Of a DNA stretch of 64,000 nucleotides, positions 4,600-19,714 are shown piece after piece (positions within the stretch are counted from its first letter, which is position 1; every line of letters begins with the position of its first letter). The notes under the pieces were generated by a model. It did not search any database. It saw only the letters and a program-made list of their open reading frames with translations, and was not told the DNA's origin. Source of the DNA: Roseicyclus marinus. GTDB lineage: Bacteria; Pseudomonadota; Alphaproteobacteria; Rhodobacterales; Rhodobacteraceae. Both the position numbers and the translations under genes were made by a program. The stretch covers positions 189,001-253,000 of the forward strand of contig NZ_AP027266.1 of assembly GCF_036322625.1 (NCBI RefSeq), in the 5' to 3' direction.

Positions 4600-5628
4600 C
4601 TAGCGCGGCGGATCGGGCTGGAACAGCCGGTTGAGCCGCTCGGGCGGTTCGCCTGCCATGCGCCTGAGCAGCATTTCCGCCATGGCGCGGCCCGTGGCGC
4701 GCAGATCCTCGAACACGGTCCCGATGCGGGGGCGGATATTGTCGAAGATCGGCGAGGCGCGCTTGGCCACGATATCGGCATCGACGCCATGAACCGCCCC
4801 GGTATCGGCCAGCGCCGCAAGCGCCACCAGCGCCGTCACCTCGCCCACGCAGACATAGCCATCGGGCGGGTTGGGGCCGCGCCGCGCCTCGGCCAGGGCG
4901 GCGGAAATCGCGGCGGTGGGGCTGTCGAGCGTGATACCCGGCACGATCTCGTGGGCGATGCCCGCCTCCCGCGCGGCGGAGACGAAGCCGTAGCGCAGAT
5001 GCTGGGCAAAGGTGAACTGGTCGCCCGGCAGCACCATGCAGATGCGCCGCCGCCCCTTGGCCACCAGATGGGCCACGGCCTGACGGGCAAAGGTTTCGTT
5101 GTCGTAATCGACCCAAGGATGCGGTGCCGTGAATTCGGTGCGGCCATGGCTGACAAAGGGGAAATCCGCCTCCATCAGCAGGCGCACACGGGGATCGAAG
5201 GCTTCGGTCCGGGTGAACAAAAGCCCATCGGCAAGGTTGTTGCGCAAGATCGTGCGCACGGGCGCAAGCCGGTCATCGCCGGGGTGGTCGGGCACGACCG
5301 TGACGGAATAGCCGGTGCCGGCCAGAACCTCGGTGATGCCGGTCAGGAATTCATGGGTGAAGCCGAGAAATTCATGCTCGGTGTTGAGCAGAAGCGAGAT
5401 CACCTGCGTCCGGCCCGTGCGCAGGCGGCGCGCGGCGCGGTCGGGGATATAGCCCAGCCGTTTGGCCATCTCGGCGACCGTCGCGCGGGTCTTGGCGGCG
5501 ATTCGCGGATCATCGGCCAGGGCCCGCGATACGGTCGCCACCGAAAAGCCCGTGGCCTGCGCCAGCGTGCGCAGGGTGGGTTTTTCGCCATGCCCATGCA
5601 GGGCGGAAAGGCTGCTGTCGTCGGTCAT
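4600..5628 (-). CDS. LacI-family transcriptional regulator (first)
   Basis: A 342-residue LacI/GalR repressor. The HTH begins about residue 16 (T-L-R-T-L-A-Q-A-T-G-F, then S-V-A-T-V-S-R-A-L), followed by a periplasmic-binding-protein-like sugar domain. The ATG at 5628 gives the short leader typical of the family. Alternatives at 5664 and 5675 are in frame, but the latter would place a predicted operator inside the gene's start; the frame is open to 5967 with nothing family-like there. It is divergent from the sugar-binding protein gene at 5868. Two CG-centred palindromes lie in the gap, so it probably represses the transporter and itself until a sugar binds. The inducer is unknown. Confidence 0.88.
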   Translation of the reverse strand: MTDDSSLSALHGHGEKPTLRTLAQATGFSVATVSRALADDPRIAAKTRATVAEMAKRLGYIPDRAARRLRTGRTQVISLLLNTEHEFLGFTHEFLTGITEVLAGTGYSVTVVPDHPGDDRLAPVRTILRNNLADGLLFTRTEAFDPRVRLLMEADFPFVSHGRTEFTAPHPWVDYDNETFARQAVAHLVAKGRRRICMVLPGDQFTFAQHLRYGFVSAAREAGIAHEIVPGITLDSPTAAISAALAEARRGPNPPDGYVCVGEVTALVALAALADTGAVHGVDADIVAKRASPIFDNIRPRIGTVFEDLRATGRAMAEMLLRRMAGEPPERLNRLFQPDPPR

Positions 5629-5676
5629 CGGGCGTTGCCGGGCCTGTGGTTGGAGCTTGGCCATATTGACAGGCAT

Positions 5677-5690
5677 TTCAAACGTTTCAA
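5677..5690. promoter_or_regulatory. Candidate LacI-family operator O1 (near the regulator start)
   Basis: TTCAAACGTTTCAA is an inverted repeat with 6 of 7 base pairs matching around a central CG, the usual symmetry of LacI/GalR operators. It lies just upstream of the chosen start of the divergent LacI gene and shares the core AACGTTT with the site at 5804-5823. The function is inferred from position and symmetry. Confidence 0.5.
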
Positions 5691-5790
5691 CATGAAAACC
5701 GTTGCACATGAAAATGCCGCGATGCAGAAAAATGCTGCATATGCAGGGCGTTTTGTGGGTTTGCCATGCGCCCCCGTCGAAAATTATCAG

Positions 5791-5821
5791 TTGACGGAAG
5801 GCCAAATTATAACGTTTTAAT
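5791..5821 (+). promoter_or_regulatory. Candidate promoter for the sugar ABC transporter operon
   Basis: TTGACG (5791-5796) resembles a -35 box and TTTAAT (5816-5821) a -10 box, with a 19-base spacer, slightly long. The -10 lies inside the 20-base palindrome at 5804-5823, as expected if a LacI protein blocks RNA polymerase there. The binding-protein gene begins 46 bases downstream. Confidence 0.4.
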
Positions 5822-5823
5822 TT
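5804..5823. promoter_or_regulatory. Candidate LacI-family operator O2 (upstream of the sugar-binding protein)
   Basis: AAATTATAACGTTTTAATTT is a 20-base palindrome with 9 of 10 pairs matching and a central CG. It is strikingly AT-rich for this genome. It sits in the gap between the divergent LacI gene and the sugar-binding protein gene and overlaps the candidate -10 box, which is the classical layout for local repression. Confidence 0.65.
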
Positions 5824-5867
5824 ACGCAAGCCCGTAAGGGCGTGGTCAATCAGGGAGGAACCGAAAC

Positions 5868-7118
5868 ATGACCATGATGAAGAAACTGCACATGAGCGCC
5901 GCCATTCTGGCGCTGTCGACCACGGCGGTCGCAGCCCAGGAGGTCGAGGTGCTGCACTGGTGGACATCCGGTGGCGAAGCTGCCGCCGTGGGCACGCTGC
6001 GCGACACGCTGGCCGCTGGCGGCATCGGCTGGCAGGACATGCCCGTCGCAGGGGGCGGCGGCTCTGACGCCATGACCGTTCTGCGCGCTCGCGTCACCGC
6101 AGGCGATGCACCGACCGCCGTTCAGATGCTCGGCTTCTCGATCCAGGATTGGGCCGCCGAAGGCGCGCTGGCCAACCTTGACGCGCTGGCCGCCGAACAG
6201 GGCTGGAACGACGTGGTTCCCGCAGCGCTTCAGGCGTTCTCGACCTATGACGGCCACTGGGTTGCCGCCCCTGTGAACGTCCACTCGACCAACTGGGTCT
6301 GGGCCAACAGCGCGCTGATGGCGGAGCTGGGCATCGAACAGCCGACCAGCTGGGACGAATTCGTCGCCGCGATGGAAGCCGCCGAGGCCGCAGGCCACGT
6401 GGCGCTCGCCCATGGCGGTCAGGCCTGGCAGGACGCGACCATCTTCGATTCGATGGTGATGGGCGTCGGCGGGCCGGACTTCTACCAGGCCGCGATGGTC
6501 GACCTGGACCCCGCAGCGCTGGGGTCGGACACGATGGTCGAAGCGTTCCAGCGCATGGAAACGCTGCGTGGTTTCGTCGATGACAACTTCTCGGGCCGCG
6601 ACTGGAACCTCGCCACCGCGATGGTCATCAACGGCGAAGCGCTGTTCCAGATCATGGGCGACTGGGCCAAGGGTGAATTCGTCAATGCGGGCCTGACCGC
6701 CGGCAACGAATTCCAGTGCTTCCGCGTGCCCGGCACCGAAGGCACCGTCACCTTCAACTCCGACCAGTTCGCCATGTTCAACGTGAGCGACCCGGCAGCC
6801 CAGGAAGCCCAGCTCGCCATGGCCTCGGCCGTGCTGAGCCCGGAATTCCAGGTCGCCTTCAACCTCGTCAAGGGCTCGGTGCCCGCGCGCACCGACATCC
6901 CCTCGGACCAGTTCGACGCTTGTGGCCAGATGGGCATGGCGCAGCTGGCCGAAGCTGCGGCAAACGGTGGCCTCTTCGGGTCGATGGCGCATGGCCATGC
7001 CAACCCGCCCGCCGTGCAGAACGCGATGTATGACGTGATCACCGCGCATTTCAACGGCGAGTATGACGCCGCAACCGCCGCCGCCGAACTGGTGACGGCT
7101 GTCGAGATCGCCCAGTAA
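5868..7118 (+). CDS. Sugar ABC transporter substrate-binding protein (CUT1 type)
   Basis: A 416-residue periplasmic binding protein that delivers a sugar to the permeases encoded next. It has a signal peptide (two Lys, a hydrophobic stretch, A-V-A-A at 20-23 before Gln24) and a mature start [13 protein letters not shown] typical of glucose- and oligosaccharide-type CUT1 proteins. The ribosome site GGGAGGAA lies about 10 bases before the ATG. The operator upstream and the following permeases and ATPase define a complete LacI-controlled importer. The exact sugar is not readable. A strong hairpin follows the gene and may raise its expression over the membrane subunits. Confidence 0.93.
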
Positions 7119-7215: not shown

Positions 7216-8115
7216 ATGGCCACAACGACCGACACGGGCGCGGATTTCCGCACGCGGTTGCAGGAATGGCTGCCCAAGCTGGTGCTGTCCCCGTCGCTGG
7301 CGATCATGCTGGTCTTCGTCTACGGCTTCATCGCCTTCACCATCTACCTCAGCTTCACCGACAGCCGGATGCTGCCGTCCTATGGCTGGGTGGGTTTCGA
7401 CAATTACGACCGGTTGTTCCGGGTGCGCGAATGGAATGTCGCGCTGACGAACCTTGCGATCTTTGCCTCGCTCTACATCGTGATCTGCACGCTGATCGGC
7501 CTGACCCTGGCCATCCTGCTCGACCAGAAGATCCGGGGCGAGGGCGTGTTGCGCCCCATTTTCCTTTATCCGATGGCCCTGTCCTTCATCGTCACGGGGA
7601 CGGCGTGGAAATGGTTTCTCGACCCGGCCATCGGGCTGGAAAACACCATGCAGCTCTGGGGCTGGGAAAGTTTCACCTTCGACTGGATCAAGGACCGCGA
7701 GATGGCGATCTATACAATCGTCATCGCCGCCGTCTGGCAATCCTCGGGCTTTGTCATGGCGATGTTTCTTGCGGGCCTGCGCGGGATCGACAACGAGATC
7801 CTCAAGGCCGCGCAAATGGATGGCGCGTCGAACTGGAACCTCTATCGCCGGATCATCCTGCCGCAGCTGCGCCCCGCCTTCCTGTCGGCCTTCGTGATCC
7901 TGAGCCATCTCGCGATCAAGTCCTATGACCTTGTCATCGCGCTGACGGGTGGGGGCCCCGGCAATGCCACGGCGCTGCCTGCGACCTTCATGTATTCCTA
8001 CACTTTCACGCGTAACCAGATGGGGATCGGTGCTGCCTCGGCGGTCATCATGCTGATGACCATCGCCGCGATCATGGTCCCCTACCTCTACGCCGAACTG
8101 CGGGAGAAGAAGTGA
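7216..8115 (+). CDS. Sugar ABC transporter permease (MalF/UgpA-like)
   Basis: A 299-residue inner-membrane subunit with about six hydrophobic segments, the first near residues 23-45. The cytoplasmic EAA-loop motif that docks on the ATPase is visible late in the protein, with A-A-Q-M-D-G-A followed by I-I-L-P-Q-L. It has the short N-terminus of binding-protein-dependent sugar permeases rather than the long MalF insertion. The start is an ATG preceded by a GGGGGAGAGG ribosome site. It overlaps the next permease by one base (TGATG), so the two are probably translated together. It works with the binding protein at 5868 and the ATPase at 9001. Confidence 0.92.
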   Translation: MATTTDTGADFRTRLQEWLPKLVLSPSLAIMLVFVYGFIAFTIYLSFTDSRMLPSYGWVGFDNYDRLFRVREWNVALTNLAIFASLYIVICTLIGLTLAILLDQKIRGEGVLRPIFLYPMALSFIVTGTAWKWFLDPAIGLENTMQLWGWESFTFDWIKDREMAIYTIVIAAVWQSSGFVMAMFLAGLRGIDNEILKAAQMDGASNWNLYRRIILPQLRPAFLSAFVILSHLAIKSYDLVIALTGGGPGNATALPATFMYSYTFTRNQMGIGAASAVIMLMTIAAIMVPYLYAELREKK

Positions 8116-8996
8116 TGGCTGTCGCATCCACCGAAACCGCGATCCGGTCCTCGAATGCCGCGCGGGTGTTCATCTATCTCGTGCTGCTCCTGTTCGCGCT
8201 GTTCTACCTTTTGCCCTTCGGCATCATGCTGGTGAACTCGCTCAAACCCCTGTCGGAAATCACCGGCGGCAACATGATCGCCCTGCCGCAGGATTGGACG
8301 ATCGCGCCCTGGCTGTCGGCATGGTCCACGGCCCAGATCGGGGTCGAGCCGACGGGCCTGCGCCCCTATTTCATCAATTCCATCGTGATGGCCGTGCCAG
8401 CCGTGGTCCTGTCGACGGTGGTGGGGGCGCTGAACGGCTATGTCCTGACCAAGTGGCATTTCCGCGGCGCCACGATCATCTTTGGCCTCTTGCTGTTCTC
8501 GTGCTTCATCCCGTTCCAGATCGTGCTGATCCCGATGGCGCGCATCCTTGGGATTCTGGATGTGGCGGGGACGACGACGGGCTTGATCCTTGTGCATTTC
8601 GTCTACGGGATCGGCTTCACCACGCTCTATTTCCGCAATTACTACGCGGCCTTCCCGACAGAACTGGTGCGCGCGGCGCAAATCGATGGGGCGGGGTTCT
8701 TCCAGATCTTCTGGCGGATCATGCTGCCCTCGTCGGGGCCGATCATCGCGGTCAGCTTCATCTGGCAATTCACCAATATCTGGAACGACTTTCTGTTCGG
8801 GGCCTCCTTTGCCTCGGGGGGCGGGGCGCCGATGACGGTGGCGCTCAACAATCTCGTCAACTCTTCCACGGGGGTGCGCGAATACAACGTGCATTTCGCA
8901 GGTGCCATCATGGCCGCCGCCCCCACGCTTCTCGTTTATATCGTCGCGGGCCGCTATTTCGTGCGCGGTCTGATGGCGGGTTCTGTGAAAGGATAA
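8115..8996 (+). CDS. Sugar ABC transporter permease (MalG/UgpE-like)
   Basis: A 293-residue inner-membrane permease, the second half of the translocation pore. Hydrophobic segments run from about residue 16, and an EAA-loop (A-A-Q-I-D-G-A, then I-M-L-P-S-S) lies in the last third. The ATG at 8115 overlaps the upstream stop; a GTG one codon earlier is also open but less likely. It ends 4 bases before the ATPase gene. The pairing of a MalF-like with a MalG-like protein is standard for CUT1 carbohydrate importers. Confidence 0.92.
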   Translation: MAVASTETAIRSSNAARVFIYLVLLLFALFYLLPFGIMLVNSLKPLSEITGGNMIALPQDWTIAPWLSAWSTAQIGVEPTGLRPYFINSIVMAVPAVVLSTVVGALNGYVLTKWHFRGATIIFGLLLFSCFIPFQIVLIPMARILGILDVAGTTTGLILVHFVYGIGFTTLYFRNYYAAFPTELVRAAQIDGAGFFQIFWRIMLPSSGPIIAVSFIWQFTNIWNDFLFGASFASGGGAPMTVALNNLVNSSTGVREYNVHFAGAIMAAAPTLLVYIVAGRYFVRGLMAGSVKG

Positions 8997-9000
8997 CCCG

Positions 9001-10116
9001 ATGGGCTTTCTCGACATCGACAATGTCACCAAGTCCTATGGCGCGGTCGAAGTGCTGCACAAGGTCGACATCGCCGTGGAAGAGGGGGAATTCCTTGTCC
9101 TCGTCGGCCCCTCGGGCTGCGGCAAGTCCACGCTTCTGAACATGATCGCGGGGCTGGAGGGGATCACCTCGGGCGAGATCCGGATCAAGGACCGGGTGAT
9201 GAACGGCGTGCACCCGTCGCGGCGCAACATCGCGATGGTGTTCCAATCCTACGCGCTCTACCCCAACATGACGGTGGGCAAGAACATCACCTTTGGCCTC
9301 GAGATGCATGGCACGCCCAAGCCCGAGCGGGAAAAGGCGATGAAGGATGTGGCCCAGCTCTTGCAGATCGAGCATCTCCTGGACCGCAAGCCGGGGCAAT
9401 TGTCGGGCGGTCAGCGTCAGCGGGTGGCGATGGGCCGCGCGCTGGTGCGCAACCCCGATGTGTTCCTCTTTGACGAGCCGCTGTCGAACCTCGACGCGAA
9501 ACTGCGCGTCGACATGCGGACCGAGATCAAGAAGCTGCACCACCGGCTGGGCACGACCATCGTCTATGTCACCCATGACCAGATCGAGGCGATGACGCTC
9601 TCGACCCGGATCGCGGTCATGTTCAACGGCTATGTCCAGCAGCTCGGCACACCCAAGGAGATCTACGACACCCCCGCCAACCTGTTCGTTGCGACCTTCA
9701 TGGGCAGCCCCGCGATGAATGTCCTCAAGGTCCGGCTGGAGGAGCGCAACGGCATCCCCCATGCCGTGATGGCCGGGGCCGATGGCGGCGAACGCGCGCT
9801 GGCCATGCCCCATGCGCCCGCCGCCGCCCGATCCTATCTGGGGCGCGAGGTGATGCTGGGCATCCGCCCCGAGGCGATCACCGACCCCGAGGGCGCGGAC
9901 CGCAACGCCCGCAACATCCAGCCGCTGGCCAATACCGTCGGGGTGACCGAACCCGCCGGGGCCGACACCTTTGTCACCATGACGCTCGCGGGCAAGGATT
10001 GCGTCGCGCGGATGCGGGCGGATGCCGATGTGCGGCCCGGCCAACCCTTTGATTTCGCGGTCAACATGGACAAGGCGGTGCTCTTCGACATCGAGACCGA
10101 GACCCGCATCGCTTGA
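9001..10116 (+). CDS. Sugar ABC transporter ATP-binding protein (MsmK/UgpC/MalK-like)
   Basis: A 371-residue ATPase that powers the importer. It has Walker A G-P-S-G-C-G-K-S-T at 36-44, the Q-loop glutamine at 82, the signature L-S-G-G-Q at 134-138, Walker B F-L-F-D-E-P ending at about 160, and the H-loop His192. After about residue 240 comes the C-terminal regulatory domain of OB-fold type (TOBE) seen in MalK and UgpC. It is the last gene of the transporter operon: a textbook terminator follows 5 bases after the stop. Such ATPases sometimes serve several importers, but its position here argues for this one. Confidence 0.94.
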   Translation: MGFLDIDNVTKSYGAVEVLHKVDIAVEEGEFLVLVGPSGCGKSTLLNMIAGLEGITSGEIRIKDRVMNGVHPSRRNIAMVFQSYALYPNMTVGKNITFGLEMHGTPKPEREKAMKDVAQLLQIEHLLDRKPGQLSGGQRQRVAMGRALVRNPDVFLFDEPLSNLDAKLRVDMRTEIKKLHHRLGTTIVYVTHDQIEAMTLSTRIAVMFNGYVQQLGTPKEIYDTPANLFVATFMGSPAMNVLKVRLEERNGIPHAVMAGADGGERALAMPHAPAAARSYLGREVMLGIRPEAITDPEGADRNARNIQPLANTVGVTEPAGADTFVTMTLAGKDCVARMRADADVRPGQPFDFAVNMDKAVLFDIETETRIA

Positions 10117-10121
10117 TCCCG

Positions 10122-10157
10122 CGCCCGCAGGTCATCTCGGCCTGCGGGCGATTTTTT
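10122..10157 (+). terminator. Rho-independent terminator of the sugar transporter operon
   Basis: CGCCCGCAGG (10122-10131) pairs perfectly with CCTGCGGGCG (10141-10150) around a 9-base loop; an A and six T follow. It is the clearest intrinsic terminator in the window and separates the ABC transporter operon from the GMC/SDR/DUF993 operon. Confidence 0.92.
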
Positions 10158-10165
10158 CCGCTGGA

Positions 10166-10181
10166 ATTGGAACGATCCAAT
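10166..10181. promoter_or_regulatory. Candidate LacI-family operator O3 (upstream of the GMC/SDR/DUF993 operon)
   Basis: ATTGGAACGATCCAAT is a 16-base palindrome with 7 of 8 pairs matching and a central CG, as in LacI/GalR sites. It lies between the terminator at 10122-10157 and the GTG start at 10211. Its arms differ from O1 and O2, so it may be read by the second LacI protein, encoded at 15195 inside the operon it would control. Confidence 0.6.
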
Positions 10182-10210
10182 AGCTAAGTTGCAAGGGCAG
10201 GGAGGATCAG

Positions 10211-11686
10211 GTGAGCGACGCCGATATCATCATCGTCGGCTCCGGCATGGGGGGCGCGACGCTGGCCGCGGGGCTGGCGGCGACGGGCCTGCGCATCCTG
10301 ATCCTGGAGCGCGGTGAAAGGCTGGAGGATTGTGCCGAGGCGCGCGATCCCGCAGCGATCTTTGGCAAGGGCCATTTCCGCCCCGCCGAGACATGGCTGA
10401 CGCCCGAGGGCGCGCGATTCAATCCCGGCAATTACGCCTGCGTCGGCGGCAATTCCAAATTCTACGGCGCGGTGATGATCCGCTACCGCGAGGCCGATTT
10501 CGCCCCCATCCGCCACATGGGCGGCACCACACCCGGCTGGCCCTTTGCCTATGACACGCTCGCGCCGTGGTACACCCAAGCCGAGGCGCTCTATCAGGTG
10601 CGCGGGCAGGGCGGCATCGACCCGACCGAACCGCCGCGCGCCGCCGACTACCTTTTTCCCCCCGTCCCGCATGAGCCCGCCATCGTCGATCTCGACCACC
10701 GCCTGCGCGGGGTCGGCCTCCACCCCGCGCCCCTGCCGCTGGCCGTCGACATCGACCGCTGGCTTGCGCGCGCCGCAACGCCCTGGGATGCCTTCCCCGA
10801 CACGACGGGCGGCAAGCTCGACGCCGAAACCGCCGCGCTGACGCTCGCGTTGCAGCACCCCAATGTGCGGCTGCAAACCGGCGTCACCGTGCACCGGATC
10901 GAGGCCGAGGGCGACCGCATCACCGGTCTTCTTACCAGCGCCGGGCGTCTGACCGCGCCGCGTATCGTGCTGGCGGCAGGGGCGGTGCACACCGCCGCGC
11001 TGCTCCTGCGATCCGCCAATGCCGATCATCCCACGGGCCTTGCCAACCGCTCGGATCAGGTCGGGCGCAATTTCATGAACCACAACGCCTCGGCCCTGCT
11101 GGCGGTCTCGCCCCGCCGCAACGCGTCGATCTACCAGAAAACCCTGATGCTGAACGATTGGTATCTGACCGGCGGACCCAAGGGGGAACCGCTGGGCAAT
11201 ATCCAGCTTCTGGGCCGGGTTTCCGCCCCGATCCTTGCCGCGCAAACGGGTCTGCCGCGCGCCCTGGCCAAGCTGATCGCGGATCGCGCCATCGATTTCT
11301 ATGTCATGTCCGAGGATCTGCCCGACCCCGACAGCCGCGTCAGGGTCCGGGGCGATGACATCGTGCTGGACTGGCGGCGCTCCAACTGGGCGGCGCATGA
11401 GGCATTGGTCGCCCGCCTCAAGACCGCGCTCCGCAAGGCGGGGTTCCCCGTGCTTCTGTCCAAGCCCTTCGACCGCAGCACGCCGTCCCATCAATGCGGC
11501 ACCGCGCGGCTGGGCGCAGATCCCGCAACCAGCGTGACAGATTCCTATGGCCGCTGCCACGATCACCCCAATCTCTGGATCTGCGACGCGTCGCTCTTGC
11601 CGACCTCGGCGGCGGTGAACCCGTCGCTCACCATCGCGGCGCTGGCTTTGCGGCAGGCGGATCGCATCGCGCAGGAGGCCGCATGA
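10211..11686 (+). CDS. GMC-family FAD oxidoreductase (first)
   Basis: A 491-residue flavoprotein of the glucose-methanol-choline group, which oxidises alcohols, polyols and sugars. The N-terminal FAD site reads I-I-I-V-G-S-G-M-G-G-A, ending near 19, with an E-R-G near 36. A C-terminal H-Q-C-G-T-A-R-L-G segment and a final N-P-S-L-T-I stretch match the family's catalytic region. The start is GTG, supported by the ribosome site GGGAGGAT directly upstream; no ATG fits. No signal peptide is visible, so it is probably cytoplasmic. It is the first gene of the operon, overlapping the SDR gene by 4 bases. It resembles the gluconate/sorbose dehydrogenase-like members; the substrate is unknown. Confidence 0.85.
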   Translation: MSDADIIIVGSGMGGATLAAGLAATGLRILILERGERLEDCAEARDPAAIFGKGHFRPAETWLTPEGARFNPGNYACVGGNSKFYGAVMIRYREADFAPIRHMGGTTPGWPFAYDTLAPWYTQAEALYQVRGQGGIDPTEPPRAADYLFPPVPHEPAIVDLDHRLRGVGLHPAPLPLAVDIDRWLARAATPWDAFPDTTGGKLDAETAALTLALQHPNVRLQTGVTVHRIEAEGDRITGLLTSAGRLTAPRIVLAAGAVHTAALLLRSANADHPTGLANRSDQVGRNFMNHNASALLAVSPRRNASIYQKTLMLNDWYLTGGPKGEPLGNIQLLGRVSAPILAAQTGLPRALAKLIADRAIDFYVMSEDLPDPDSRVRVRGDDIVLDWRRSNWAAHEALVARLKTALRKAGFPVLLSKPFDRSTPSHQCGTARLGADPATSVTDSYGRCHDHPNLWICDASLLPTSAAVNPSLTIAALALRQADRIAQEAA

Positions 11687-12423
11687 GACGCGCATTGATC
11701 ACCGGCGGGCAGCAGGGCATCGGGTTGGGAATCGCGCAAGCGCTCCATGGCGCGGGCTGGCAGGTGGCGCTTGCCGCCGAGCTGTCGCCGGAGGCGGCGG
11801 TGGTGCAATCCGCCCTGGCCGGGATGCCGGGTGCGACCTATCACCGGCATGACCTGACGGACCTTGCGTCCATCCCCGCGCTGCTCGATGCCGTGGGGCC
11901 GGTCACGACGCTGATCTCCAACGCAGGCGTGCCTGCGATGGTGCGCGGCGACCTCTTGGACATGAAGCCCGACAGTTTCGACCGCTGCATCGACGTGAAC
12001 CTGCGCGGTGCCTTCTTTCTTGCACAAGATTGCGCGCGGCGGATGCGTGACCTGCCGCCCGATCCCTACCGGTCGATCTGTTTCATCACCTCGGTCTCTG
12101 CCACGATGGTCTCGCCCGACCGCGCGGAATACTGCATCTCCAAGGCAGGGGCCGCCATGATGGCGCAAGCCTTTGCCGCGCGGCTTGCGCCCGAGAATAT
12201 CGGCGTCTTCGACATCCGTCCCGGCATCATCGAAACGCCGATGACCGCGCCCGTCCGCGACCGCTATGACAGCCGCATCGCCGATGGCCTTGTCCCCGCC
12301 CGCCGCTGGGGCAATCCCGCCGATATCGCGCAAGTGATCCTGCCGCTTGCGCGCGGCGATTTCGCCTTTGCCACCGGGGCCGTGATCCCCGTCGATGGCG
12401 GGCTTTCCATTCACCGGCTCTAA
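11683..12423 (+). CDS. Short-chain dehydrogenase/reductase
   Basis: A 246-residue classical SDR that oxidises or reduces an alcohol/ketone with NAD(P). The cofactor motif is T-G-G-Q-Q-G-I-G at about 7-14; N-A-G is near 80-82; the catalytic residues are a Ser in I-T-S-V-S (about 137) and Tyr150/Lys154 in Y-C-I-S-K. The ATG at 11683 overlaps the preceding stop; the frame is open further upstream only because it runs through the GMC gene. Placed between two GMC oxidoreductases, it probably acts on the same carbohydrate or its keto product. An annotation as 3-oxoacyl-ACP reductase would be misleading in this context. Confidence 0.9.
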   Translation: MRRALITGGQQGIGLGIAQALHGAGWQVALAAELSPEAAVVQSALAGMPGATYHRHDLTDLASIPALLDAVGPVTTLISNAGVPAMVRGDLLDMKPDSFDRCIDVNLRGAFFLAQDCARRMRDLPPDPYRSICFITSVSATMVSPDRAEYCISKAGAAMMAQAFAARLAPENIGVFDIRPGIIETPMTAPVRDRYDSRIADGLVPARRWGNPADIAQVILPLARGDFAFATGAVIPVDGGLSIHRL

Positions 12424-12433
12424 AGGGGCGATC

Positions 12434-14020
12434 ATGGCCGAGGGGTTCGATTACATCATCATCGGCGGCGGCAGCGCGGGCTGTGTCCTGGCCGGCCGCC
12501 TGTCCGAGGATACGACGGCACGGGTGCTGCTGCTGGAGGCCGGGGGGCGCGACCGCAACCCGCTTTATCACCTGCCCGCAGGTTTCGCGAAAATGACCAA
12601 GGGCCTGGGCTCCTGGGGCTGGGAAACCGTGCCGCAGCGCCACATGAAGGGGCGCGTCTTTAACTATACCCAAGGCAAGGTCATCGGCGGCGGCTCCAGC
12701 CTCAACGCGCAGATCTACACGCGCGGCAATGCGCAGGATTACGACGAATGGCGGCAGATGGGCTGTGACGGCTGGGCCTACGACGATGTCCTGCCGTATT
12801 TCCGCAAGGCCGAGGACAACGACACCTACGACAACCGCTACCACGGCAAGGGCGGCCCCTTGGGCGTATCCCAACCCATCGCCCCCCTGCCGATCTGCGA
12901 GGCGTATTTCGAGGCGGCCGCCGCCCTCGGCATCCCGCGCAACATGGACATCAACGGCGAAACACAGGATGGCGTCTGCTATTACCAGCTGACCCAGCGC
13001 AACGCGCGCCGCTCCTCTGCCGCGATGGCCTATGTCGCCCCGAACGAGGGGCGGGCGAACCTGACCATCAAAACCGGCGCGCAGGTGCGGCGCATCACGG
13101 TCACGGGCGGCCGCGCCACGGGCGTCGAGTTGATGGACGGCACCCATGTCACCGCGACGACCGAGGTCATCCTGTCCTCCGGCGCCATCGGCTCCCCGCG
13201 CCTGTTGCAGCTGTCGGGCATCGGTCCGGCGGATCATCTGCAGGAACTGGGGATCGACGTGATCCTCGACCAGCCACAGGTGGGCGAGAACCTGCAAGAT
13301 CACCTCGATCTTTATTGCATCGTGGAACTGAGCGGCCCCTACAGCTACGACCGCTACGCCAAACCGCACTTGGCCGCCCTTGCCGGTCTGCAATACCTGC
13401 TGACGCGCAAGGGGCCGGTCGCCTCCTCGCTCTTTGAAACGGGCGGGTTCTGGTATGCCGACCGGGACGCCCGTTCCCCCGATATCCAGTTCCATCTCGG
13501 CCTTGGCACCGGCATCGAAAAGGGTGTCGCGGCCATGCCGCAGGGGGGCGTGACGCTCAATTCCTGCCACCTGCGCCCGCGCTCGCGTGGCAGCGTGCGG
13601 CTGGCCTCCAGCGATCCGGCCAAGGCCCCGCTGATCGACCCGAATTACCTGTCCGATCCCCATGACCGCGAGATGTCGATCCGGGGGCTGAAACTGACGC
13701 AAGAGATCATGGCCCAGGCGCCCCTTGCCAACTACGTGCTGGCCGAACGCCTGCCGGGGCCGGATGTGCGCACGGATCAGGACTATTTCGACTTCATCTG
13801 CGAACATTCCAAGACCTCGCACCATTGCGCGGGCACCTGCCGGATGGGCAGCGATCCTGCCGCCGTGGTCGACCCCCGCCTGCGGTTGAACGGCATCGCG
13901 GGGCTGCGCGTGGTGGACAATTCCATCATGCCCAAGGTCATTTCCTCCAACACCAATGCCGCCGCCATCATGATCGGCGAGAAAGCCGCCGACATGATCC
14001 GCCAAGACGCGAGGGCCTGA
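12434..14020 (+). CDS. GMC-family FAD oxidoreductase (second, choline-dehydrogenase-like)
   Basis: A 528-residue GMC flavoprotein, the length of BetA-type choline and alcohol dehydrogenases. The FAD motif I-I-I-G-G-G-S-A-G-C is at about 8-17, the GMC signature follows (G-G-G-S-S-L-N-A around 90), and the C-terminus has H-H-C-A-G-T-C-R-M-G and the N-T-N-A-A-A-I-M segment, with the catalytic His/Asn pair expected there. The chosen ATG (10 bases after the SDR stop) gives the usual N-terminus. It starts one base before the DUF993 gene ends the spacing series. Two unlike GMC enzymes in one operon suggest two successive oxidations, or two stereo- or position-specific ones. Confidence 0.88.
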   Translation: MAEGFDYIIIGGGSAGCVLAGRLSEDTTARVLLLEAGGRDRNPLYHLPAGFAKMTKGLGSWGWETVPQRHMKGRVFNYTQGKVIGGGSSLNAQIYTRGNAQDYDEWRQMGCDGWAYDDVLPYFRKAEDNDTYDNRYHGKGGPLGVSQPIAPLPICEAYFEAAAALGIPRNMDINGETQDGVCYYQLTQRNARRSSAAMAYVAPNEGRANLTIKTGAQVRRITVTGGRATGVELMDGTHVTATTEVILSSGAIGSPRLLQLSGIGPADHLQELGIDVILDQPQVGENLQDHLDLYCIVELSGPYSYDRYAKPHLAALAGLQYLLTRKGPVASSLFETGGFWYADRDARSPDIQFHLGLGTGIEKGVAAMPQGGVTLNSCHLRPRSRGSVRLASSDPAKAPLIDPNYLSDPHDREMSIRGLKLTQEIMAQAPLANYVLAERLPGPDVRTDQDYFDFICEHSKTSHHCAGTCRMGSDPAAVVDPRLRLNGIAGLRVVDNSIMPKVISSNTNAAAIMIGEKAADMIRQDARA

Positions 14021-14021
14021 G

Positions 14022-15185
14022 ATGCTGCTGCCGACCTATGCCGGAACGCTGGAGGACTACCGCCTGTCGGGCGACCCGCTGACCCCGCGCAGCCCCCGTG
14101 TGGCGCTCACCCGCACCGCCTTTGCCGCGGCCCATGTCATCAGCGACCCGATGGCCGAACGCAGCCCGTGGGATGGCCGCCCCGCCGTCGATTGGGAGGC
14201 GACACTGGGCTTTCGCCACCGGCTCTGGGATCAGGGTCTGGGTCTGGCCGAGGCGATGGATACCGCGCAGCGCGGCATGGGCGTGGATTGGCCCACCGCG
14301 CTCGAATTGATCCAACGCACCATGGCCGAGGCGCGGGCCCATCCCCTGCGCCCCCGCGTCGCCTGTGGCGCGGGCACCGATCACCTGACCCTGTCCGATC
14401 TCACCAGCCTTGACGCGATCCTTGCCGCCTATCGCACCCAGATGGAGGCGATCGAGGCCGCAGGCGGCCAGATCATCCTGATGGCCACCCGCGCCCTGCC
14501 CGCGATCAAGGCGGGGCCTGAGGATTACGCCGCGCTTTACGGAAAACTTATAGAAGAATCCGCAAACCCCGTGATCCTGCACTGGCTGGGCGACATGTTC
14601 GACCCCGCCCTGACCGGCTATTGGGGCGCGCAGGATATCGCGACGGCCAACAATGTCGTCCTCGACATCATCACGCGCCACGCCGCCAAGATCGACGGGA
14701 TCAAGATCAGCCTCCTCGATCAGGCGCACGAGGAATCGTTCCGCGCCAAGCTGCCGCCCGGTGTCCGCCTCTATACCGGCGACGATTTCAACTACGCCCC
14801 CCTGATCGAGGGCGACGGGACCCGCCATTCCCACGCGCTTCTGGGCATCTTTGCCGCCATCGCCCCCGCCGCCTCCCAGGCGCTGGAGGCGCTGGCGATG
14901 GGCGACAGCGCCACCTATCACGCGCTCTTCGCGCCCACCGTGCCCCTCAGCCGCGAAATCTTCAAACCACCGACCCGGTTCTACAAGGCGGGCATCGCCT
15001 TTCTGAGCTGGCTCAACGGCACGCAAAGCCATTTCATCATGCCCGGCGGCTTCCAATCCTCGCGCGAGATTGCGCATTACGCGCAGGTCTACCGCCTGGC
15101 CGATCAGGCGCGGCTCCTGTCCGACCCCGATCTGGCCCAAACCCGGATGCGATCGCTCTTGGCCTTGCACGGGATCGGCGGCTAA
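14022..15185 (+). CDS. DUF993 family protein, DapA-like TIM barrel (putative lyase/aldolase)
   Basis: A 387-residue protein I recognise as DUF993, a family of unproven function related to dihydrodipicolinate synthase. The sequence shows strand-like segments around I-I-L-M-A-T-R (about 151) and V-I-L-H-W-L-G (about 184), then D-G-I-K-I-S with Lys228. The G-I-K context matches the Schiff-base lysine of class I DapA-type aldolases, although the usual Tyr after the earlier strand is replaced by His. It starts one base after the GMC stop and sits in the middle of the operon. Aldol cleavage or dehydration of a keto-sugar acid is a reasonable inference, not shown. Confidence 0.8.
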   Translation: MLLPTYAGTLEDYRLSGDPLTPRSPRVALTRTAFAAAHVISDPMAERSPWDGRPAVDWEATLGFRHRLWDQGLGLAEAMDTAQRGMGVDWPTALELIQRTMAEARAHPLRPRVACGAGTDHLTLSDLTSLDAILAAYRTQMEAIEAAGGQIILMATRALPAIKAGPEDYAALYGKLIEESANPVILHWLGDMFDPALTGYWGAQDIATANNVVLDIITRHAAKIDGIKISLLDQAHEESFRAKLPPGVRLYTGDDFNYAPLIEGDGTRHSHALLGIFAAIAPAASQALEALAMGDSATYHALFAPTVPLSREIFKPPTRFYKAGIAFLSWLNGTQSHFIMPGGFQSSREIAHYAQVYRLADQARLLSDPDLAQTRMRSLLALHGIGG

Positions 15186-15194
15186 CTAGGGCGC

Positions 15195-16208
15195 ATGATC
15201 CGCCGCCCCACCATCCTCGATGTCGCCGCCCGCGCGGGCGTGTCGAAATCCACCGTGTCCCTGGTCCTGCAAGGGTCCAAACAGGTGCGCCCCGAAACCC
15301 GCGCCGCCGTTGAACGGGCCATGGCCGAGATCGGCTATGTCTACAACCGCGCGGCGGCCAACCTGCGCTCGGCCTCGGTGGGTCTGGTGGGTCTTGTGAT
15401 CAACGACCTGCGCAACCCGTTTTTCACCGAATTCGCGACCAGCCTGCAAATGGCGCTCGCGGCCGAAGGCTATGCCACCGTCATCGCCAATTCCGACGAG
15501 GATGCAGAGCTTCAGGCGAAACTGGTGGGCTCCATGATCGAACATGGCGTGTCCGCGCTCGTCATCTCGCCCGCCTATGGCGGCGCGTCCGAGACCTTCG
15601 ACCAATTGGCGCGCACCGGCCTGCCGGTGATGCAGGTGCTGCGCAAGATGGATGAGCGGACCGATCTCTTTCCCTTCGCCAGTTTCGATTATGCCAGCGG
15701 CAGCGCCATGGCCGCGCGCCACCTGCTCGAACAGGGCGCGCGCAACATCGCCTTTGTCGGGGGGCTGCCGGGCCGCGCCATCACGCGCGAACGCAAATCC
15801 GGCTGGCGCGAGGTGCTGAAATCCGAAGGGCATCAGGAAATCGCGCTCCACGGCAAATCCAGCCGCGCCTTCGGCATGCAGGCGGCGGGACAGCTCATCG
15901 CCGATCACCCCGATGTCGATGCCGCGATCTGTTTCAACGATCTCGTGGCGCTGGGCCTGATGGCCGGTTTCGCCCGCGCCGGTCGGCCCATCGGGGCGGA
16001 ATTCCGCGTCGTCGGCTTCGACGATATCGAAGAGGCGCAACAGGCCTGGCCGCCGCTCTCCTCGGTCGCTTGCGATATCGCCGGCTTCGCCCGCGACACG
16101 GCCACGCGCCTCTTGGCCTGGATGGTGGAGGGGCAGCGCCCCGCCCCCGAATTGCGCAGCCCCGTCCATCTCGTTTCCCGCATGTCCAGCACGGGCCATC
16201 CAGAATGA
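15195..16208 (+). CDS. LacI-family transcriptional regulator (second)
   Basis: A 337-residue LacI/GalR regulator. The HTH is at the extreme N-terminus: T-I-L-D-V-A-A-R-A-G-V, then S-K-S-T-V-S-L-V-L, and the hinge helix ends with N-L-R-S near 56-59. A sugar-binding domain fills the rest (for instance I-C-F-N-D-L-V-A and V-V-G-F-D-D-I-E late in the protein). It lies inside the operon, 9 bases after DUF993 and overlapping the glycerate kinase start by 4 bases, so it is made with the enzymes it probably controls. The palindrome at 10166-10181 is the likely target. The effector is probably the pathway substrate or an intermediate. Confidence 0.92.
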   Translation: MIRRPTILDVAARAGVSKSTVSLVLQGSKQVRPETRAAVERAMAEIGYVYNRAAANLRSASVGLVGLVINDLRNPFFTEFATSLQMALAAEGYATVIANSDEDAELQAKLVGSMIEHGVSALVISPAYGGASETFDQLARTGLPVMQVLRKMDERTDLFPFASFDYASGSAMAARHLLEQGARNIAFVGGLPGRAITRERKSGWREVLKSEGHQEIALHGKSSRAFGMQAAGQLIADHPDVDAAICFNDLVALGLMAGFARAGRPIGAEFRVVGFDDIEEAQQAWPPLSSVACDIAGFARDTATRLLAWMVEGQRPAPELRSPVHLVSRMSSTGHPE

Positions 16209-17437
16209 CCCCCCCCGATCTGCTCCGCGCGATGTTCGACCGCGCCGTCGCCGTCGCCGACCCGATGCAAAGCCTTGGCCAGCGCCTGCCGCCCAAGCCG
16301 CCCGGCCGGGTTGTCGTGATCGGCGCGGGCAAGGCCAGCGCCCGCATGGCCGAAGCGGTCGAGGCCGCATGGGGCCCCTGCGAGGGCCTGGTCATCACCC
16401 GCTACGGCTATGCCCGCCCCTGCAAGGGGATCGAGATCGTGGAGGCGGCCCACCCCGTCCCCGATGCCGCAGGCGTCGCCGCCACCCGCCGGATGCTCGA
16501 CCTCCTGTCCGGGCTGGGGGAGGGGGATTTCGTCCTCGCCCTCATCTCGGGCGGTGGCTCCGCCCTGCTCTGTGCGCCCGCACCCGGCATCACGCTGTCC
16601 GAGAAACAGGCGCTGACCCAGGGCCTCTTGGCCTCGGGCGCGCCCATCGGCGACATCAACGGCATCCGCAAGGAGATATCGGCGGTCAAGGGCGGACGGC
16701 TCGCCGCCGCAGCCTATCCCGCACGGATGCTCGCGCTGATGATCTCGGATGTTCCGGGCGATGATCCGGGCGATATCGCCTCTGGCCCCACGGTCGGGCA
16801 TCGCGGCGATGCGGCCCGCGCGCTGGCCACGCTCGCCCGCTGGGGCGTCACGCCGCCCCCCTCCATCGACGCCTTCCTGCGCGCGGGCGGTGACCCGGTC
16901 CTGCCCGATGATCCGCGCCTGTCGCGGGTGGAAAACGTGATCTACGCCGCCCCCGCCCAATCTCTGGCCGCCGCCGCCGATCTGGCCCGCGCGCAGGGTT
17001 ACGCCGTCGACATCCTCGGCGACGCGCTGGAGGGGGAGGCGCGCGAGGTCGCCACCATCCACGCCACCCTGGCCCGCGCCGCCAAGGGTCCGCGCCTGAT
17101 CCTGTCGGGCGGTGAGCTGACCGTGACGCGGCGCGGCGACGGAATAGGGGGCCCCAATGCCGAATACGCGCTGGCGCTGGCGCTGGCCCTCGATGGCGCA
17201 CCGGGGATCCATGCCATCGCCTGCGACACCGATGGCGTCGATGGCGCGGCCGAGGTCGCGGGCGCGCTCATCGGCCCCGATACGCTGGCGCGCGCCGCAT
17301 CCGCAGGCATCGACGCGGCCGGGGCGCTGGCGCAGAACGATGCCCATAATTTCTTCTACAAGATCGGCGGGCAGGTCGTCACCGGCCCCACCCTCACCAA
17401 CGTGAACGACTTCCGCGCCATCCTGATCGAAGGCTAG
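16205..17437 (+). CDS. Glycerate 2-kinase, MOFRL family (TtuD/GckA-like)
   Basis: A 410-residue protein of the glycerate kinase family often mislabelled hydroxypyruvate reductase. It phosphorylates D-glycerate at C2, feeding 2-phosphoglycerate into glycolysis. Visible features are V-V-V-I-G-A-G-K-A-S near 37-46, the I-S-G-G-G-S-A-L-L segment around 116-124, the D-V-P-G-D-D-P turn around 183-189, and a C-terminal MOFRL domain with L-S-G-G-E-L-T-V-T and N-D-A-H-N-F-F. The ATG overlaps the LacI stop. As the last carbon enzyme of the operon, it implies the pathway yields glycerate (or tartronate semialdehyde or hydroxypyruvate reduced to it). Confidence 0.9.
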   Translation: MTPPDLLRAMFDRAVAVADPMQSLGQRLPPKPPGRVVVIGAGKASARMAEAVEAAWGPCEGLVITRYGYARPCKGIEIVEAAHPVPDAAGVAATRRMLDLLSGLGEGDFVLALISGGGSALLCAPAPGITLSEKQALTQGLLASGAPIGDINGIRKEISAVKGGRLAAAAYPARMLALMISDVPGDDPGDIASGPTVGHRGDAARALATLARWGVTPPPSIDAFLRAGGDPVLPDDPRLSRVENVIYAAPAQSLAAAADLARAQGYAVDILGDALEGEAREVATIHATLARAAKGPRLILSGGELTVTRRGDGIGGPNAEYALALALALDGAPGIHAIACDTDGVDGAAEVAGALIGPDTLARAASAGIDAAGALAQNDAHNFFYKIGGQVVTGPTLTNVNDFRAILIEG

Positions 17438-17440
17438 ACC

Positions 17441-17749
17441 ATGCTGCACCATATCGTCCTGATGGACCCCGACGGGCCCGAGGCGCTGGCCGCGATCAAG
17501 GCCGCCATGCCGATCCTTGCCGCCGTCTGTGACGCTCTGCCGGGTGCCTCCGGCTTCACCCATGGCCCCAACCGCGATTTCGAGGGGAAATCGGCGCGCT
17601 ATACCTACGGCTTCTCGGTCCATTTCACCGATCGCGCCGCCCATCTCGCCTATGAACAGCACCCCGACCATATCCGCGCGGGCGGCATGCTGGTTGCCGC
17701 CTGCCGGGGTGGTCACGACGGGATTTTCGTCGCCGATCTCGAGGTCTGA
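17441..17749 (+). CDS. Dabb-family (stress-responsive alpha/beta-barrel) protein
   Basis: A 102-residue protein of the dimeric alpha/beta-barrel Dabb group: it opens M-L-H-H-I-V-L-M and carries Y-T-Y-G-F-S-V-H-F and a Y-E-Q-H-P-D-H segment, all usual in the family. Such domains are found in small enzymes, isomerases and monooxygenase-like proteins, with no common reaction. It starts 3 bases after the glycerate kinase stop, so it belongs to the sugar-oxidation operon and may act on an intermediate or be an accessory protein. Confidence 0.8.
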   Translation: MLHHIVLMDPDGPEALAAIKAAMPILAAVCDALPGASGFTHGPNRDFEGKSARYTYGFSVHFTDRAAHLAYEQHPDHIRAGGMLVAACRGGHDGIFVADLEV

Positions 17750-17812
17750 ACTGGCCAAACCTTCGTTGTGCGGGCATCTTTTGCCGAAACCCGGGCAGGA
17801 TGCGGCGCAGGC

Positions 17813-18700
17813 ATGACCGATACCCATATCTTCTTCGTGGCCGATGGCGAGCGCCTCGAATGGCAAAGCTGGCTTCTGGCGGCAAGCCTTGCCCATGCCC
17901 ATCGGGGGCGGGGCGATGTCCATCTCTACGCCTATGCCAGCCCCGATTGGCTGGAGCAGGTCGGCCCCGTCACCCGCGCCATCTATGCCGAGGCAGGCGT
18001 CGACCTGCGCGCCCTGCCGGAATCGCCCAACTGGGCCAAACCCTATCCGCATGGCAACAAGATCGTCGCGGCGACCGACCACCGCGGGCCCGGGCGCGGC
18101 ATCTTTCTCGATACCGACATGATCTGCCTCAAACCCCTGACGGAATTGGCCGATCTGCCCGCCACCCACATCGCCGCAGCACCCGAGGGGCGGCCCACAT
18201 GGGGCCCCGATGACCGCTGGCAGCGCGCCTATGACCATTTCGGCCTGCCGCTCCCCACGTCCCGCGTCCGCCTCTTGCGCGGCGACCGGCCCGAACACCT
18301 GCCCTATTTCAACGCGGGCCTCGTCGCCATGCCCGAGGATGCGCAGCCAGACGGCAAACGCTTTGCCGATCACTGGCTCGAAACCGCGCTCGACTTCGAC
18401 CACAAGTGCAAGATCGCCAACAAGCGCCCCTGGCTCGACCAGATCACCCTGCCGCTCGCCATCGCGCGCTTCGGCTATACCGCCCATGTGCTGGACGAAA
18501 GCTGGAACCACGCGCTGTCGCATCGCGGCTCGGCCATCGACCAGACGCCCGATGCGCATATCCTGCACTATCACCGCTTCATGTTCCTGCGCGCCGCCCC
18601 GCAATGGCCGGGCATCTTGCAACGCTTCTTCGACCTCGTGCCAAGGGCGCAGCACCCCGCCGCAACCGACCGCCTGCGCGAGATGAACCTTCTACCCTAA
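17813..18700 (+). CDS. Glycosyltransferase-like protein (GT8-like fold), function unknown
   Basis: A 295-residue cytoplasmic protein. It begins with a beta-strand plus early donor-site region (T-H-I-F-F-V-A-D-G), and F-L-D-T-D-M-I at about 101-107 provides a D-T-D metal and nucleotide-sugar motif like the D-x-D of glycosyltransferases. A later P-Y-F-N-A-G-L-V-A segment and an H-Y-H-R near the end also match GT8-type enzymes. The ATG was chosen at 17813; a short in-frame extension upstream has no support. It is 63 bases downstream of the Dabb gene and ends at a terminator. The acceptor is not predictable, and it may not belong to the catabolic operon. Confidence 0.6.
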   Translation: MTDTHIFFVADGERLEWQSWLLAASLAHAHRGRGDVHLYAYASPDWLEQVGPVTRAIYAEAGVDLRALPESPNWAKPYPHGNKIVAATDHRGPGRGIFLDTDMICLKPLTELADLPATHIAAAPEGRPTWGPDDRWQRAYDHFGLPLPTSRVRLLRGDRPEHLPYFNAGLVAMPEDAQPDGKRFADHWLETALDFDHKCKIANKRPWLDQITLPLAIARFGYTAHVLDESWNHALSHRGSAIDQTPDAHILHYHRFMFLRAAPQWPGILQRFFDLVPRAQHPAATDRLREMNLLP

Positions 18701-18790: not shown

Positions 18791-19714
18791 TCAGCGCGCC
18801 AGCAACGCCTCTACCTCGGCACGGGTGGGCATCGCCGCCGCCGCCCCCGCCCGCGTGACCGAGATCGCGGCAACGGCGGTGGCAAAGCGCAAGGCATCCT
18901 CCAGCCCCCGCCCTTCGGCCAGCGCCGTGGCGAACCCGCCGTTGAACGCATCGCCTGCGCCGGTTGTATCCACCACCGGCCCTGCGTTGATAGGCGGCAC
19001 ATGCCGCGCGCCCGCCGCATCGCAGACGAGCGCCCCATCGCCCCCCAGCGTCACGATCACCGCCTTGCCCACGCCCTGATCCAGCAATGCGCCCCCAGCC
19101 CTCGCCGCGCTGTCGCGGTCCGTCACGGCAATGCCCGTCAACCCCTCGGCCTCCGCCTCGTTCGGGATCAGGTAATCGCAAAGCGCCAGCATCCCTTGGG
19201 GCAGGGGGGCCGCAGGCGCAGGGTTCAGGATCGTGATCGCGCCCCCCTCCCGCGCCACGCGCAAAAACGCTTCTGCCGCCGCCATCGGCTGTTCCAGCTG
19301 CGTCAGCGCCACCCTAGCCTGTCCGATCGCCTCGGCCTGTGCCGCCACATCCGCCACGCTGATGGCCCCCGCCGCACCGGGACTGACCACGATGGCATTC
19401 TTGCCCGTGCCCGTTTCCACGAATATCCCCGCAGCCCCGGTGGGCAGGCTCTCGTCGATCACGGCCAGCGGATGGACCCCCGCCCGGGCCCAGGTCTCCT
19501 GCCCCATCGCGCCGAACGTGTCTTTCCCGATCCGGGTCAGGAACCCCACATCGCCCCCCGCCATGGCGGCGGCCACCGCCTGGTTCGACCCCTTGCCGCC
19601 GGGGCCAAGGGTGAACCCCGTTCCCAGCACCGTCTCCCCCAACCGGGGCGGCGCGTCACAGCGGAACGCCGCATCGGCCACGAATATGCCAAGGATCACG
19701 ATATCATGGGGCAT
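18791..19714 (-). CDS. rbsK: Ribokinase-like PfkB-family sugar kinase
   Basis: A 307-residue PfkB carbohydrate kinase closest to ribokinase: G-G-K-G-S-N-Q-A near 39-46 is the family's N-terminal signature, and D-T-T-G-A-G-D-A-F-N-G-G near 247-258 is the anion-hole and catalytic-Asp signature. It phosphorylates a sugar such as ribose at the 5-position using ATP. The ATG at 19714 was chosen because AAGGAGAAGG lies 7 bases upstream; the frame is open for much longer upstream only through antisense of other genes. It is divergent from the acyl-CoA ligase and has no ribose transporter beside it, so other sugars remain possible. Confidence 0.85.
   Translation of the reverse strand: MPHDIVILGIFVADAAFRCDAPPRLGETVLGTGFTLGPGGKGSNQAVAAAMAGGDVGFLTRIGKDTFGAMGQETWARAGVHPLAVIDESLPTGAAGIFVETGTGKNAIVVSPGAAGAISVADVAAQAEAIGQARVALTQLEQPMAAAEAFLRVAREGGAITILNPAPAAPLPQGMLALCDYLIPNEAEAEGLTGIAVTDRDSAARAGGALLDQGVGKAVIVTLGGDGALVCDAAGARHVPPINAGPVVDTTGAGDAFNGGFATALAEGRGLEDALRFATAVAAISVTRAGAAAAMPTRAEVEALLAR

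Follow-up and report, generated by a model that had tools for sequence, protein, structure and literature searches.

What does a bacterium break down with two flavoenzymes of the GMC family, a dehydrogenase of the SDR family, a barrel protein of the DUF993 family and a glycerate kinase? The question is raised by a seven-gene operon of Roseicyclus marinus, which lies in the 64-kb stretch of DNA analysed here (the window, G000:C1:189001-253000 of the source genome, whose size is 3.55 Mb). An earlier note on this DNA had read the operon as a dedicated catabolic route under its own LacI regulator, with several oxidations and an exit through glycerate kinase. That reading stands, except for the boundaries: the seven genes do form an operon, but they make up one half of a larger unit, which also takes in a second operon sharing the operator and an ATP-binding cassette (ABC) transporter. 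The regulon and the substrate class, 1,5-anhydrohexoses, are well supported, and the chemistry is what we infer from the genes.

All seven genes named in the earlier note are confirmed by Pfam matches and open reading frame (ORF) boundaries, on a single strand (+) and overlapping or a few bases apart. They encode the flavoenzyme GMC1 (10211–11686), the SDR (11683–12423, its start ATG overlapping the stop of GMC1), the flavoenzyme GMC2 (about 12434–14020, in an ORF from 12395), DUF993 (14022–15185), the LacI-type regulator (15195–16208; PF00356), a MOFRL-type glycerate kinase, probably a 2-kinase (16205–17437; PF05161 and PF13660; overlapping the LacI gene by ATGA), and a Dabb protein (17441–17749; PF07876, E = 8e-9). 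Upstream, and beyond what that note had covered, a second operon on the same strand encodes a Gfo/Idh oxidoreductase, the predicted 1,5-anhydro-D-fructose reductase (afr; 1–731, its start lying beyond the window at G000:C1:188718), a fused-type CoA-transferase (735–2306; PF01144), a crotonase or enoyl-CoA hydratase (2300–3070; PF00378, E = 1e-44) and an aldehyde dehydrogenase (ALDH; 3074–4597). Between the two operons, again on the + strand, stand the transporter genes: a solute-binding protein of the glucose-binding type (5868–7118), two permeases (7216–8115 and 8112–8996, both PF00528, the second with 142 bits to the GlcU model, under its cut-off) and an ATPase of the UgpC/MalK type (9001–10116; NF008653, 453 bits against a cut-off of 432). 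A terminator-like hairpin of 12 pairs with a T-run follows the transporter operon (10122–10150, +), though a hairpin scan overall found 10 sites against 10.7 in shuffles and thus no excess.

What joins the two operons is a shared operator. The putative operator of the LacI regulon has the pattern TTGGAWCGWTCCAA, first spotted by eye in the window and then used for counting. With at most one mismatch this pattern occurs three times in the genome, while the reversed control gives no match: once 5' of afr, as TTGGATCGTTCCAA at G000:188656; once 5' of GMC1, as TTGGAACGATCCAA at 10167–10180 of the window; and once within an ORF (G000:3031710), for which reason the last was set aside as a third site of the regulon. 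TTGGAACGATCCAA stands at the same place 5' of GMC1 in all five nearest relatives (L067–L071). For wider counts we used 129 loci, of which 61 are reductase-type, 54 isomerase-type (a different setting, described below) and 14 other, leaving out L161 as well as L149, which is the same place as L162. Reductase-type means a reductase match above 45% identity, or GMC1, GMC2 and the binding protein together; the reductase itself is seen in 35 of the 61 loci, the remainder being cut by the flank. The pattern is carried by 43 of the 61 reductase-type, none of the 54 isomerase-type and five of the 14 other loci, and by none of five CoA-type loci of a sister cluster (L215–L218, L220). The 18 reductase-type loci that lack it are window-type loci whose 10-kb flank ends before the afr promoter; in the two window-type loci fetched far enough (L150, L219) the operator is present at that promoter. 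Rhizobial loci, including that of Sinorhizobium meliloti, have it in the gap between LacI and DUF993, and in Roseibium it precedes the reductase.

The motif SKSTVSLVL in the LacI recognition helix occurs in 57 of the 58 reductase-type loci that have a LacI gene and in none of the 54 isomerase-type loci; the pattern was chosen after examples had been seen, so the count is a description and not a blind test, and stricter helix patterns missed loci (33/61 and 22/58 matched). The recognition helix of a second LacI-type regulator, LacIup (4600–5967, − strand; probable start about 5664), is different. A palindrome at 5677–5690, TTCAAACGTTTCAA, is the likely operator of LacIup and the transporter operon; it is exact in four of the five nearest relatives, with one change in the fifth, and by these sequences LacIup probably has its own operator. 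For the two enzyme operons we consider membership of one LacI regulon highly probable.

The reductase gives a clue to the substrate. Against solved structures it matches 4KOA (E = 1e-117) and 2GLX (3e-115), with glucose-fructose oxidoreductase next at 9e-29, and it is 57% identical to 4KOA, a 1,5-anhydro-D-fructose reductase. Its CEKPLAM and DIVVHDADT segments, with the EKP lysine and the D-x3-H of the Gfo/Idh active site, align with both structures. On sequence the window enzyme is thus predicted to be a 1,5-anhydro-D-fructose reductase. In the cluster of S. meliloti Ak57 the gene between LacI and the CoA-transferase bears the annotation '1,5-anhydro-D-fructose reductase', and 4KOA is 99.7% identical to it; the identity of 4KOA to reductases of Sinorhizobium sp. 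8-89 and Ensifer aridi is 93–94%. The binding protein, by its matches, groups with sugar-binding proteins of the glucose type (4R2B, E = 7e-166; 5DVF, 5e-115; glucose-binding protein 2B3B, 4e-36; also 8HQQ). The earlier note had proposed stepwise oxidation of a polyol or sugar: the oxidations hold, and for the substrate the reductase points instead to 1,5-anhydro sugars, which are derived from starch and resist normal metabolism. That the substrate class is the 1,5-anhydrohexoses we regard as probable.

The S. meliloti cluster offers a further link. In one study smc04396 is reported as induced by dextrin (PMC4960864), and in another SMc04390–SMc04392 are a GMC-type enzyme, an SDR and a dehydrogenase (PMC12542648). 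From the nearness of these gene numbers and from the gene order, we infer that smc04396 is the binding protein of the cluster. In the same numbering, afr is reportedly SMc04400 (Kuhn and co-workers, 2006). The same authors reportedly described an anhydrofructose route to mannose, a route that a 2025 review also gives (PMC12441222).

The gene set is no chance assembly. Among the 28 close relatives fetched with sufficient flank (L080 and L092 were too short and were omitted), 27 keep GMC1, the SDR, GMC2 and DUF993 at 55–90% identity; LacI is present in 25 of the 27, the Dabb gene in 24, and glycerate kinase is seen in 14. The sole exception, L084, restored to the count as the 28th locus, has the transporter and DUF993 and is without GMC1, SDR, GMC2, LacI and glycerate kinase. 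P. desertarenae has the full set in one direction (Gfo/Idh, CoA-transferase, crotonase, ALDH, ABC transporter, GMC, SDR, GMC, Dabb, DUF993, LacI, glycerate kinase). In R. daejeonense and S. meliloti the full set is rearranged with DUF993 divergent from LacI, the S. meliloti order being DUF993, then LacI, afr, CoA-transferase, crotonase, ALDH, binding protein, two permeases, ATPase, GMC, SDR, GMC and glycerate kinase. In Roseibium porphyridii the cluster lies on a 49-kb plasmid. Among the 15 other window-type loci with a readable gap between the ATPase and GMC1, 14 have 3–29 bases there (L093 has 87), so that transporter and GMC genes run on; the gap of the Roseicyclus group measures about 100 bases and holds the hairpin and the operator. 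The nearest DUF993 relatives of the source genome are those of Roseicyclus and other Rhodobacterales.

How might these enzymes act together? We lean, by a little, towards the view that the unit serves an aerobic catabolism of 1,5-anhydrohexoses that depends on CoA thioesters and yields glycerate and another small unit. Candidate substrates are 1,5-anhydro-D-fructose, 1,5-anhydro-D-mannitol and perhaps 1,5-anhydroglucitol, which the glucose-type ABC importer would bring in. GMC1, closest among solved proteins to FAD glucose dehydrogenase (8HDD/6A2U, E = 8e-34) and then fructose dehydrogenase (3e-26), would act with the reductase at C2, the two converting alcohol to ketone and back; both are missing from the sister cluster and would handle the anhydro sugar itself. 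GMC2 is a different enzyme, as the earlier note had said, the two being only 26–27% identical across two aligned parts (GMC_oxred_C matches at 3e-20 for GMC1 and 3e-39 for GMC2). It is of the choline dehydrogenase or alcohol oxidase type, with 8B7S (5e-116) and choline dehydrogenase 9LQ0 (2e-108) as closest solved structures, and the nearest NCBIfam model of the ALDH is betaine-aldehyde dehydrogenase (481 bits, under cut-off). This resemblance suggests that GMC2 and ALDH would take the primary alcohol at C6 to the carboxylate, as choline dehydrogenase and then betaine-aldehyde dehydrogenase do.

The upstream operon also makes a scheme without CoA chemistry, such as the earlier note had drawn, incomplete. 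The CoA-transferase (nearest solved YdiF, 2AHU, E = 2e-94) would form the thioester of the C6 acid. The crotonase has both hydratase Glu positions (GGGLELA and LPEAQVG), and the SDR is of the '3-ketoacyl-ACP reductase' type PRK12745 (NF009386, 314 bits against a cut-off of 250). Together the three suggest the logic of beta-oxidation, in which crotonase and SDR would act on the beta-carbon to open the ether ring or give a beta-keto thioester. Possibly the crotonase eliminates the C4 hydroxyl of an anhydrohexuronyl-CoA to an enol ether, which would open on hydration, giving an open keto acid from what had been an inert cyclic ether. DUF993 would then cleave a C–C bond through an imine on Lys228, and the C3 piece would pass as glycerate to the kinase and into glycolysis. 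The kinase matches DUF4147 (262.8 bits, 3e-78) and MOFRL (113.8 bits, 5e-33), both over cut-off, and the glycerate 2-kinase model (167 bits) under it. The proposed order of the CoA steps is tentative and rather less likely than not. A fuller version is doubtful: that the anhydrohexose acid is ring-opened by crotonase and SDR as its CoA thioester, that DUF993 founds a class of Schiff-base lyases cleaving the resulting keto (acyl-CoA) product, and that the sister cluster does the same for deoxy analogues. The closest solved structure to the crotonase is the 3-hydroxypropionyl-CoA dehydratase 5ZAI (E = 1e-44). Handling of 3-hydroxypropionate by CoA-transferase and crotonase was also considered; the unit is without an acryloyl-CoA reductase, and the genome has one protein of the AcuI/YhdH type over cut-off.

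The cleavage step would depend on DUF993 (PF06187; 578 bits against a cut-off of 24, E = 6e-174, model positions 2–382 of 382). Its AlphaFold2 model (mean pLDDT 85) shows a barrel to which a helical part is added, and Foldseek places 4DNH first, followed by proteins of the DHDPS type (3E96, E = 2.5e-9; TM 0.59–0.75). The G-I-K motif and Lys228 of the earlier note are correct: Lys228 lies in the predicted strand 6 (224–230) and is invariant in 129 of 129 rows, the correspondence to the DapA lysine being one of position only. His187 in strand 5 (184–189) is likewise invariant, as is Tyr200 after that strand. DapA has a Tyr (Tyr133) in strand 5, and its GTTGE motif (consensus of 11 DapA rows) corresponds in DUF993 to A78-M79-D80-T81, placed by strand order and not by superposition, with A78 in 128 and M79 in all 129 rows. 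The Thr pair of the pyruvate motif is therefore Ala-Met, which leaves the 2-keto acid of the earlier note unsupported, while the Schiff-base C–C cleavage that it also implied remains probable. With a DapA-type barrel and Lys228 but no pyruvate motif, a lyase for another ketone is the likelier reading. That DUF993 is a Schiff-base lyase of some kind we consider rather likely.

The family occurs in several settings. In a scan of genome contigs we found at least 586 DUF993 relatives and kept 80; of the 385 genomes of the class 35 have a member, against none of the 14 controls. In the isomerase-type loci, a common setting, the neighbours of DUF993 are a Gfo/Idh gene of another kind (48 of 50) and a gene resembling xylose isomerase. 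These 50 loci, and L148 of S. meliloti with its SMc04132-type DUF993, also have a TetR regulator and, in many cases, a TTT transporter or a gene of the enolase superfamily. DUF993 accompanies CoA-transferase, crotonase and SDR in four further isomerase-type loci and in five that were added afterwards (P. kondratievae, P. versutus, Rhizobium TH2, Sagittula, which is one of the four, and S. meliloti pSymA), often with acyl-CoA dehydrogenase and electron transfer flavoprotein (ETF). The sister cluster (L215–L218 and L159, from these five organisms) shares the core of GMC2, ALDH, CoA-transferase, crotonase, SDR and DUF993, adds acyl-CoA dehydrogenase and ETF, and has an isomerase-like gene; ETF and a CUT2-type ABC importer are found in several. 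With Gfo/Idh or SDR nearby, DUF993 is usually beside a dehydrogenase able to make its ketone. In the DUF993 tree (which omits L156, a short or interrupted match) the 70 reductase-type rows cluster together with a support of 91, below the starred level. A separate recruitment into the reductase cluster, suggested by the place of L035 among isomerase-type rows in a quick tree, was dropped as a claim; the likelihood is higher for a tree that keeps L035 within the reductase group, and this tree is not rejected (AU p 0.658).

The alternative that survives best, though unlikely, is that this barrel serves not a lyase but a hydrolase, an isomerase or a metal enzyme. The many invariant acidic and His positions (H38, D57, D80, D120, H187, D194, D254, D255) would suit it; against it, the position of the Schiff-base lysine in class I aldolases is conserved throughout. 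Distinctly improbable is the plainer earlier scheme, a non-phosphorylative Entner-Doudoroff route in which DUF993, as a pyruvate-type aldolase, cleaves a 2-keto-3-deoxy sugar acid to glyceraldehyde, which is oxidised to glycerate and phosphorylated. The DapA-type fold with its strand-6 lysine and the presence of ALDH and MOFRL kinase are in its favour, and some isomerase-type DUF993 clusters carry an enolase-superfamily gene like acid-sugar dehydratases (query MR in 22 of 50, the related query Enol in 10 of 50). Besides the replaced GTTGE motif, however, it leaves CoA-transferase and crotonase unexplained, and no sugar-acid dehydratase was found among the genes of the two operons, the rest of the genome not having been searched.

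Still less probable is another glucose-like substrate such as an osone or a glycoside, with the reductase working on a 2-keto aldose: anhydrofructose reductases also reduce osones, the binding protein is of the glucose type and the identity to the known reductase is 57%, but S. meliloti has essentially the solved enzyme in the same cluster. Least probable is the route described for S. morelense in the 2025 review (PMC12441222), in which anhydrofructose is reduced to anhydromannitol and hydroxylated at C1 by an oxygenase to mannose, the cluster then oxidising the hexose, for there is no P450 gene in the cluster (the genome has P450 matches at three sites, of which the closest is about 1.15 Mb away), an FAD monooxygenase gene directly upstream of afr (L161:11340-12614) has no counterpart at that position in P. 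desertarenae or S. meliloti, and the CoA genes would be left unexplained. Kojic acid as the substrate was set aside, a literature search having found nothing relevant.

Several observations weigh against CoA-dependent anhydrohexose catabolism. Between the window reductase and 4KOA the identity is just 57%. A reductase occurs in five of the 385 class genomes, of which only two also have DUF993; elsewhere it stands alone (G070) or beside other genes (G340), and in G339 the contig is too short. The Mesorhizobium loci L131 and L135 keep the cluster and the operator, with the reductase missing from its place. DUF993 is commoner without the reductase (35 of 385 genomes; 54 of 129 loci isomerase-type). 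A profile link between DUF993 and DapA is absent (hhalign probability 0.3 of 100, E = 0.19, from small alignments of 20 and 11 rows). The published route differs, with anhydromannitol hydroxylated at C1 to mannose (PMC12441222). For the source genome itself, the proposal rests on gene content and comparison.

Some neighbouring genes deserve mention in their own right. After the Dabb gene lies a gene (17768–18700) with a weak match, under cut-off, to glycosyltransferase family 8, and a gene of this kind adjoins the cluster in two of the nearest relatives (L067, L071). A pfkB-type sugar kinase (18791–19702, −) faces the cluster. Directly upstream of afr, outside the window, are an SDR and the FAD monooxygenase gene (L161:10519-12614), neither of which is at that position in P. 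desertarenae or S. meliloti. In Microvirga (L105, L158) an HbpS-like gene adjoins the cluster glycerate kinase, with Dabb too in L158. CP090106.1 (L214), labelled S. meliloti pSymB, is 3.72 Mb long and has loci that would be expected on the chromosome; it is probably mislabelled.

Several known systems come close to this one. The reductase is shared with the anhydrofructose catabolism of S. morelense and S. meliloti (AFR, 2GLX, 4KOA), and in S. meliloti the whole cluster and operator are too; for the later step, the published description has an unidentified enzyme hydroxylate C1 to yield mannose. The anaerobic 1,5-anhydroglucitol/anhydromannitol route of E. coli and gut bacteria serves the same substrate class (PMC12441222) by way of a phosphotransferase system (PTS), phosphorylated intermediates and oxygen-sensitive glycyl radical enzymes (YbiW, PflD), whereas the present cluster has an ABC importer, flavoenzymes and CoA enzymes, and neither a PTS gene nor one for a glycyl radical enzyme. 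From the DapA/N-acetylneuraminate lyase superfamily (DHDPS, KDG aldolase) DUF993 differs in having no detectable sequence similarity and no pyruvate motif, with fold and strand-6 lysine in common. Non-phosphorylative Entner-Doudoroff routes share an aldolase-like protein, ALDH and MOFRL glycerate 2-kinase; the present unit has in addition CoA-transferase, crotonase and two GMC enzymes, and no sugar-acid dehydratase. In 2020 Price and colleagues reportedly described an oxidative deoxyribonate pathway with CoA intermediates and glycerate, which shares the logic of CoA activation, SDR oxidation, C–C cleavage and glycerate kinase but acts on another substrate with a BKACE-type cleavage enzyme instead of DUF993. 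Our literature searches found no description of the cluster, its CoA genes or DUF993 in anhydrofructose catabolism, and no reaction of DUF993, in keeping with the earlier note; the word DUF993 itself turned up in no paper, and the solved homologue SMc04132 appears in the literature found only as an 'uncharacterized protein'.

According to the 2025 review, the step that follows anhydrofructose reductase still lacks an identified enzyme and no comparable oxidative route is on record for 1,5-anhydroglucitol, while a 1,5-anhydroglucitol enzyme working in air would be useful against the neutropenia of glycogen storage disease type Ib (GSDIb) and G6PC3 deficiency (PMC12441222). The locus makes the step after the reductase testable: in S. 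meliloti, a tractable laboratory organism, it offers some nine candidate enzymes together with an operator. The DUF993 family has one solved structure (4DNH) but no reaction to its name; 1,5-anhydrohexoses would be its first substrate class, handled by a gene set found in soil and marine bacteria.

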